From Elusimicrobium sp. (lineage in GTDB: Bacteria > Elusimicrobiota > Elusimicrobia > Elusimicrobiales > Elusimicrobiaceae), in assembly GCA_015062115.1 (NCBI GenBank), contig SUVG01000002.1, positions 1 through 64,000 on the forward strand: a stretch of DNA of 64,000 nucleotides. The letters run 5' to 3'. Made by a program: the position numbers and the translations under genes. Below are positions 54,545 through 61,831 of this stretch, piece after piece. Below the pieces are notes generated by a model, which saw only the letters and a program-made list of their open reading frames with translations, searched no databases and was not told the origin of the DNA. Within the stretch, counting starts at the first letter, position 1. Every line of letters starts with the position of its first letter.

Positions 54545-54577
54545 AGGAGGATAGAAGTAAACGCAGTTTTGCGTGAA

Positions 54578-54795
54578 TAGAATTTAATCTGTTTTTGGAA
54601 CCATATACAAGATATGGTGTATGCCGAGTAATCGGCACGCAAACAGGCCAAAAACAGTCGTCTTAGGCGCAAGATAAACGGACTAATTACCCGTTTGTTT
54701 TGTGCCGAGTGTCTGCCGTCCTATGGGCGGCAGGCCACGGCTGTTTCTTATGAGCTACCTGTTTGCGGCTCTGAGAAAACAGCCGTTTTTGTTTT
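54578..54795 (+). ncRNA. Candidate structured RNA upstream of pilin 2
   Basis: Promoter-like TAGAAT at 54578-54583 would start RNA near 54589, exactly at helix P1: CTGTTTTTGG (54589-54598) with CCAAAAACAG (54648-54657). P1 encloses two hairpins, ACCATAT/ATATGGT (54600-54618) and TGCCGA-GTAA-TCGGCA (54622-54637, a GNRA loop). P5 pairs AAGATAAACGG (54671-54681) with CCGTTTGTTTT (54691-54701). P6 pairs CTGCCGTCC (54713-54721) with GGGCGGCAG (54725-54733). It ends in a terminator at 54737-54795. The ATG of a pilin gene lies 30 bases further. It may be a riboswitch or an independent small RNA; I do not recognise the family. It does not look like 6S, SRP, tmRNA or RNase P RNA. Confidence 0.6.
54737..54795 (+). 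terminator. Terminator of the structured RNA
   Basis: Perfect 10-bp outer stem ACGGCTGTTT (54737-54746) / AAACAGCCGT (54777-54786), inner GAGC/GCTC stem, then TTTTTGTTTT. It stands between the RNA and the pilin ATG, so the pilin needs read-through or another promoter. Confidence 0.85.
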
Positions 54796-54825
54796 CTTGA
54801 GCTCGATAAAAAGGGAGAAAGGAAA

Positions 54826-55314
54826 ATGAAAGAAGGTTTTACATTAATAGAATTATTGGTCGTAGTGCTGATTATCGGTATTTTATCAGCGGTGGCTCTT
54901 CCGCAATATACAAAAGCCGTTACTAAGGCCCGTTTTACGGAAGCACTTATTTTGCTGAAGAGTGTTAAACAGGCTAAAGATGTCTGTTTTTTGGCAACGG
55001 GAGAACAGTGTTCTTACTGGGAAGAGTTGGATGTAGAAGTTCCCAATCAAGTTACAGTTCATGGTGCAGAAACAAAATATTTTTATCTGGATGCTATGGA
55101 TGGTTGGAACGGTGCCAATGGCCCTGTGATTGGCTATAAAAAAGAAAAAGTATGTATTTGCTATTATGACGAAGAAGACCCAATTCTAGGAACAAAAGGA
55201 AAATTAGTCCTTTCTCAAGGAGTTGGGGGGTGTTCGACGGACGAACCTACTATGGATTATGCTAAACTATTAAATATTCCCGAGGTTTCGGAAGATAAAT
55301 GTGGTTGTTGTTAG
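54826..55314 (+). CDS. Type IV pilin-like protein 2
   Basis: A 162-residue prepilin with leader MKEG and the mature start FTLIELLVVVLIIGILSA, almost identical to pilin 1 over the first 35 residues and unrelated after that. The C-terminal domain carries ten cysteines, including CFLATGEQC and the terminal CGCC, an unusually high count that suggests several disulfides. GGGAG and AAAGGA precede the ATG. Upstream is a terminator-ended structured RNA, and no terminator is seen before the tRNA gene, so the pilin message may run through tRNA-Phe. Confidence 0.87.
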   Translation: MKEGFTLIELLVVVLIIGILSAVALPQYTKAVTKARFTEALILLKSVKQAKDVCFLATGEQCSYWEELDVEVPNQVTVHGAETKYFYLDAMDGWNGANGPVIGYKKEKVCICYYDEEDPILGTKGKLVLSQGVGGCSTDEPTMDYAKLLNIPEVSEDKCGCC

Positions 55315-61378: not shown

Positions 61379-61831
61379 ATGAAAAAAGGTTTTACACTTA
61401 TTGAACTTTTGATTGTAATGGTTGTATTGGGTATTTTGGTAACGATTGCCATGCCGAAATATCGTGCGTCGTTGGAGCGCGGTCGCGCCATGGAAGGAAT
61501 TACCAATTTGCGCGCCGCCAGCGATGCTATGAATGCCAAATATATTATGAACGAAAATGTGTACACTCGGGATGGAGTTGTAGATTCAAACCAAAATTTT
61601 TTAATGGGAAACATTGCTAAAAGCCGAAGTTTTACTGCTCCTCGGTTGGAAAGCGGTGGGGACACAACAGCCACTATTCGCGTGATTCGGGAAGGCGGAG
61701 AATATGAATTGTGGGCTGAAAATGTAGACGGCGAATTAAAATATATTACCTGTACCGGTGATACGGAACTTTGCCAAGCCATCGGTGCGGAACTCGTCGG
61801 TACTCAATATATCTTTGATTTTAGAAAGTAA
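61379..61831 (+). CDS. Type IV pilin-like protein 3
   Basis: A 150-residue prepilin with leader MKKG and mature start FTLIELLIVMVVLGILVT; the Glu at +5 is present. The short globular domain has a Cys pair near the end (ITCTGDTELC). The ATG at 61379 is set by AGGAGG; an earlier in-frame ATG would give a non-pilin leader. It is unlike pilins 1 and 2 outside the helix. It stands alone between divergent and convergent genes. Confidence 0.87.
   Translation: MKKGFTLIELLIVMVVLGILVTIAMPKYRASLERGRAMEGITNLRAASDAMNAKYIMNENVYTRDGVVDSNQNFLMGNIAKSRSFTAPRLESGGDTTATIRVIREGGEYELWAENVDGELKYITCTGDTELCQAIGAELVGTQYIFDFRK

Follow-up and report, generated by a model that had tools for sequence, protein, structure and literature searches.

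A candidate transcription attenuator RNA family in the 5′ leaders of Elusimicrobium prepilin genes

A structured leader precedes a prepilin gene

The stretch of DNA analyzed here, termed the window, comprises 64,000 nucleotides (nt) of Elusimicrobium sp. contig SUVG01000002.1, with position 1 being its first letter. On its plus strand, a prepilin gene at positions 54826 to 55314 is preceded by an RNA leader (54581 to 54796) made up of several hairpins and an intrinsic terminator. An initial annotation of the window had described a riboswitch-like, terminator-bearing leader before a pilin gene and had raised the possibility of a new class; our analysis supports that description. We propose that the leader belongs to a family of transcription attenuators in which the 3′ strand of its first helix, P1, is exchanged between P1 and an antiterminator. 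The features of the window copy are as follows.

54581 to 54588 (+), conserved 5′ flank AATTTAAT; ATTT-type flank in nearly all copies
54589 to 54598 (+), strand 1, 5′ side of P1, CTGTTTTTGG; near-invariant across 232 copies
54601 to 54617 (+), P2 hairpin; 6/6 pairs changed on both sides
54622 to 54637 (+), P3 hairpin with GUAA loop; 7/7 pairs changed on both sides
54638 to 54647 (+), J, CGCAAACAGG, 5′ half of the J:L helix; pairs with L at 54758 to 54767
54648 to 54660 (+), strand 2, CCAAAAACAGTCG; 3′ side of P1 or, alternatively, 5′ side of the putative antiterminator
54666 to 54706 (+), P4, a 16-pair hairpin and the largest; 16/16 pairs changed on both sides
54684 to 54689 (+), apical loop of P4, TAATTA, a palindrome and candidate kissing-dimer site
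54711 to 54735 (+), P5 hairpin, 11 pairs; 11/11 pairs changed on both sides
54738 to 54745 (+), strand 3, CGGCTGTT; 5′ arm of the terminator or, alternatively, 3′ side of the putative antiterminator
54758 to 54767 (+), L, CCTGTTTGCG, inside the terminator hairpin loop; pairs with J
54778 to 54785 (+), strand 4, AACAGCCG, 3′ arm of the terminator
54786 to 54796 (+), T-run of the intrinsic terminator, read from the sequence; TTTTT after the hairpin in most copies
54813 to 54822 (+), Shine-Dalgarno (SD) region of the pilin gene, from the sequence and the family-wide SD pattern
54826 to 55314 (+), prepilin gene, 162 amino acids, N_methyl (PF07963, E = 1.6e-6)

The window copy has a minimum free energy of −99 kcal/mol compared to −59 ± 4.6 kcal/mol for shuffled sequences (z = −8.7). 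Its minus strand folds more weakly (z = −5.6), which fits the plus strand being the RNA. Every helix that the initial annotation had named is present. The 10-bp P1, formed by CTGTTTTTGG (54589 to 54598) and CCAAAAACAG (54648 to 54657), closes the P1-P2-P3 domain, and the 11-pair P5 is present. The terminator is a G+C-rich hairpin (54738 to 54785) followed directly by the T-run, which ends about 30 nt upstream of the ATG at 54826, as had been described. The GNRA-capped hairpin is P3; the hairpin is present, but the GUAA cap is specific to the window copy. P4 merits more weight than it was first given.

BLAST identified diverged copies of the leader in most genomes of the same genus, and a covariance model built from 27 copies found a match in 57 of the 61. 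The family is about 210 nt long, with pairwise likeness among copies of only about 70%. Helix statistics were taken from 78 copies in an alignment fitted to the proposed structure, so that absolute values lean towards it: the 62 base pairs were 95.5% intact, compared to 79.4% in shuffled and 40 to 51% in slid alignments. Double-change cells numbered 728 versus 180.5 after shuffling, and 50 of the 62 pairs had changed on both sides. Of the helices whose covariation the initial annotation had asked about, P5 has changes on both sides of every pair. While P2 to P5 vary freely in sequence, P1 and the base of the terminator hardly change; the CGGC/GCCG base is unchanged in nearly all copies, with TTTTT behind it in 166 of 232. 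The conserved structure is not a product of chance.

A predicted antiterminator competes with P1 and the terminator

The initial annotation had suggested that P1 and the terminator exclude each other, with the 5′ strand of P1 pairing with the 3′ arm of the terminator. Mutually exclusive helices are supported, but the better-supported pairing joins the P1 3′ strand to the terminator 5′ arm, in the window AACAGTCG (54653 to 54660) with CGGCTGTT (54738 to 54745). Family-wide, strand 2 (AACAGYCG) can pair along its length with strand 3 (CGGCUGUU), and pairs 1 to 7 are intact in 97 to 99% of the 232 copies. We rejected a switch based on strands 1 and 4; this pairing is possible but is kept in only 87 to 97% of copies per pair.

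In alignment A4, strands 2 and 3 had 9 double-change cells versus 2.2 after shuffling (0/500) and were 94.9% paired versus 26 to 62% when slid. The GUU of strand 3 is paired with strand 2 in 94 to 99% of copies compared to 73 to 86% with strand 4. A G-to-A change at pair 3 of strand 3 (CUAUU) occurs in eight copies from four genomes, and all eight carry U opposite it in strand 2, a base present there in about 13% of copies overall (Fisher p = 2.7e-8, without correction for relatedness). Two copies (L272 and L249) have lost the terminator pair at this position but retain the antiterminator pair. About 98% of copies have C or U, facing G, at the two positions 3′ of P1, although these lie outside that helix. 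Coordinated changes also occur in copies from a second family of Elusimicrobiota, such as L337 and, of the copies in L346, the second.

In constrained folding, the antiterminator was favored for the nascent RNA of 211 of 214 copies (mean advantage, 9.8 kcal/mol), and P1 plus the terminator for the full-length RNA of 184 of 214 (5.2 kcal/mol). Since the two lengths favor opposite states, the default state in cells is a kinetic question that lies beyond these energies.

A hidden helix joins J to the terminator loop

The initial annotation had missed a 10-bp complementarity between J (CGCAAACAGG, 54638 to 54647), the ten nucleotides just 5′ of strand 2, and L (CCTGTTTGCG, 54758 to 54767), ten nucleotides in the terminator loop. 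Across the initial 27 copies, Watson-Crick runs between J and L averaged 9.9, compared to 4.2 when copies were mismatched. With G-U pairs allowed, 94% of the 232 copies had a run of at least 9 versus 4.4% in a cross-copy control. All J sequences differ among the 44 copies of one genome, where mean J identity is 0.29 with one divergent copy left out (chance, about 0.255). We considered J:L as a hypervariable targeting guide and rejected it: orthologues (L001, L009, and L010) keep J:L or show compensated change, and thus drift suffices for the variability. In the highest-scoring copy (L175, 253 to 467), J and L are mismatched; its L (AGGGAAAATG) is perfectly complementary to the J of a copy from another genome (L176), which suggests gene conversion or a chimera.

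A model for attenuation of pilin transcription

We believe, with a probability of roughly 0.8, that the leader attenuates transcription in cis and represents a candidate riboswitch class, one that serves prepilins and some other genes. Its structure is conserved, the genes that follow lie on the same strand, and its terminator and antiterminator helices are mutually exclusive and covary. Computation shows the family, its helices, the alternative pairing, the energy ordering, and the gene context, from which we infer switching in vivo, the default state, and a trigger. P1 would close the P1-P2-P3 domain. As RNA polymerase advances, strand 2 could leave P1 and pair with strand 3, and this antiterminator, lengthened by J:L, would enclose P4 and P5 in a three-way junction. 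If it persists, no terminator would form and the gene would be read; if P1 retains strand 2, strand 3 would pair with strand 4 and transcription would stop about 30 to 40 nt before the start codon. The choice may be set by binding of something to one of the two forms. The strands joining the antiterminator junction are conserved (UUUA, GARU, and YR), which makes this junction a candidate binding site. The model is concrete and mutable, and addresses how bacteria with 56 to at least 150 pilin genes might control them.

Several observations weigh against the model. Few unpaired bases are conserved in the P1-P2-P3 junction, and so the leader may not be a metabolite aptamer. The eighth pair between strands 2 and 3 is intact in only 74 to 82% of copies, and the double changes come from two of the eight pairs. 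J:L was picked as the best run. No good promoter serves the window copy itself, which thus may depend on readthrough from the upstream gene. Finally, the folding energies ignore a possible J:L pseudoknot alongside P1 and the terminator.

Such a pseudoknot, with J, which lies in the P1-P2-P3 junction, kissing the terminator loop, would be a compact fold that modulates termination without strand exchange. The ten pairs of J:L span roughly a single helical turn, L occupies most of the terminator loop, and conservation extends to P1, P6, and J:L alike. However, coexistence leaves the covariation between strands 2 and 3 and the conserved YC outside P1 unexplained, and 10 bp spanned by a loop of about 12 nt appears strained. 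We regard it as unlikely.

The P4 loop is palindromic at a fixed register

In 193 of the 203 copies with a 13-nt P4 loop, the loop tetramer at one fixed register is a palindrome, compared to 0 to 29 of the 203 at the other nine registers. The palindromic tetramers are AATT, TATA, GATC, TCGA, TGCA, AGCT, and CTAG; counted by distinct tetramer, 7 of 11 are palindromic (binomial p of about 1e-6). The commonest hexamers include TAATTA, TTATAA, TTCGAA, and TCATGA. Four of the remaining P4 loops contain GACG, and GACG tetraloops kiss in a murine retrovirus.

Homodimers held by loop-loop contacts would be expected to show this pattern, an apical loop that is self-complementary at one register, which suggests kissing-loop dimers in which two leaders would pair through P4. 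The retroviral dimerization initiation site likewise has a hairpin whose six-base palindromic loop lies between unpaired bases. Unlike it, P4 stands in a bacterial 5′ leader with several palindromes per genome, and its dimer is a candidate only. Kissing between hairpin loops is also part of the fold of the guanidine-II (mini-ykkC) riboswitch (PMC9094411, PMC9300104); that RNA has two small hairpins, whereas the leader has a 16-pair P4 and a separate terminator switch. We tentatively raise a new class of self-dimerizing attenuator, a doubtful extension of the model: leaders of dozens to more than 100 pilin genes would kiss via P4. Transcripts of separate pilin loci would thereby detect each other, or a ligand shared at the dimer, and coordinate the choice of pilins to be expressed. 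The palindromic loop makes it conceivable that bacterial leaders form functional RNA dimers; RNA oligomers have been described as rarely observed in nature (PMC7357161).

Genes downstream of the leader

Among 227 copies with enough flanking sequence, the downstream gene was a prepilin in 164 and another gene in 60, with no open reading frame in 3. The nonpilin genes are often exported or surface-related and include those for lipoproteins, secreted proteins, and glycosyltransferases. The median distance from T-run to ATG was 39 nt. A same-strand SD sequence and ATG lay within 125 nt in 193 of the 227 copies versus 19 on the other side. In 392 kb of one relative (G084), the RNA stands ahead of 40 of 66 pilins. 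Pilins without it have no leader of this sort. A second N_methyl prepilin in the window (61385 to 61828) has no model match ahead of it.

The initial annotation had also offered a small RNA. A stand-alone, trans-acting RNA ending at the terminator, perhaps as a dimer and with incidental downstream genes, would suit the discrete unit of about 210 nt, the palindromic loop, the strong terminator, and the TATAAT promoter-like site close upstream in most copies. Such a site occurs 12 to 110 nt upstream in 208 of 229 copies versus 147 after shuffling, mild support for a promoter. A small RNA with its own promoter and terminator should leave the downstream gene independent, but that gene is tightly linked, as the SD-ATG asymmetry and the 164 prepilins indicate, and the window has no sigma70-like promoter between the terminator and the pilin ATG. 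We consider this explanation quite improbable.

Distribution and copy number

Some raw model hits are merely antisense shadows of true copies (5 of the 49 in one set), and copy numbers are given here as strict counts. Strict copies numbered 3 in the window's own genome, 128 in G084, 91 in G026, 48 in G109, 46 in G064, and 44 in G078. The G084 genome is 1.7 Mb, and 128 copies is exceptionally high for a cis-regulatory RNA. Among the matches listed, the covariance model placed the leader in at least 18 genomes of one sister genus. Sampling across the phylum added 13 genomes of a second Elusimicrobiota family (f15), which is probably Endomicrobia-like. Close relatives of the methyltransferase encoded upstream are in metagenome-assembled genomes labeled Elusimicrobium, Elusimicrobiaceae, or Elusimicrobiales, mostly from rumen and from other gut samples.

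N_methyl matches numbered at least 150 in G084, 113 in G064, 80 in G000, and 76 in G091 (genomes of 1.4 to 1.7 Mb). The model search found no copies in a one-contig genome of 1,643,562 bases, presumably Elusimicrobium minutum, despite 76 N_methyl pilins, nor in G028 despite 56. The RNA is therefore not required for pilin expansion. A terminator-pattern scan of viral contigs gave four stretches, none of which matched the leader model.

The high copy number, patchy distribution, and link to a variable surface-gene family could also reflect a DNA repeat, mobile or recombining, by which pilin genes are spread or shuffled and whose hairpins act as folded DNA. This we find very improbable: although copies are only about 70% alike, compensatory changes, often through G-U pairs, preserve all of the helices; folding is stronger for the plus strand; and each copy has its own J:L.

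Comparison with known RNA classes

Novelty was judged against Rfam 15 and open-access papers. At the gathering threshold and up to E = 10, Rfam returned only chance hits for the window copy; all Rfam scans together gave a tRNA and chance hits. The initial annotation's suggestion of 6S RNA found no Rfam covariance-model match. GEMM cyclic di-GMP (c-di-GMP) riboswitches occur ahead of pilin genes, and 2 to 3 GGDEF proteins per genome make c-di-GMP possible in these cells, but a divergent GEMM, also suggested earlier, is the least probable reading of all, since neither GEMM-I (RF01051) nor GEMM-II (RF01786) had a cmscan match in the window copy (E ≤ 10) or four other loci (up to E = 0.1) and the leader matches neither in sequence or structure. 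We found no report of the leader in the literature searched, which was mainly open access. The family thus appears undescribed, and adds a strongly supported structured RNA to a phylum with almost no RNA biology.

As in transcription-terminating riboswitches of the purine-sensing yxjA type (PMC9756952), an aptamer-like P1, an antiterminator, and a terminator would compete by strand exchange in a 5′ leader. The leader differs in having no known ligand, a freely drifting 10-bp J:L helix in its antiterminator, and up to 128 copies per genome ahead of prepilins. It shares the terminator/antiterminator choice with T-box and protein-dependent antitermination leaders, but has no Rfam match and no recognized tRNA-binding features.

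Promoters of RNA-free pilins and a subclass of copies

Nearly all RNA-free pilins of G084 (L183 to L202; L184 near 17053, minus strand) have the promoter TTGACGCG-T12/13-GATATTCT, and the homopolymer in its −35/−10 spacer could be a phase-variation tract. A pilin from the window's own genome (L203) has the promoter TTGACCCG-T11-GTTATAG. One subclass of leader copies (L034, L117, L123, L176, L177, and others) carries an extra 5′ hairpin, AAGCC...GGCTT, with an SD-like AAGGAG ahead of it and a more distant −10, and mostly precedes nonpilin genes. The window copy has a similar hairpin at 54561 to 54574, after AGGAGG.
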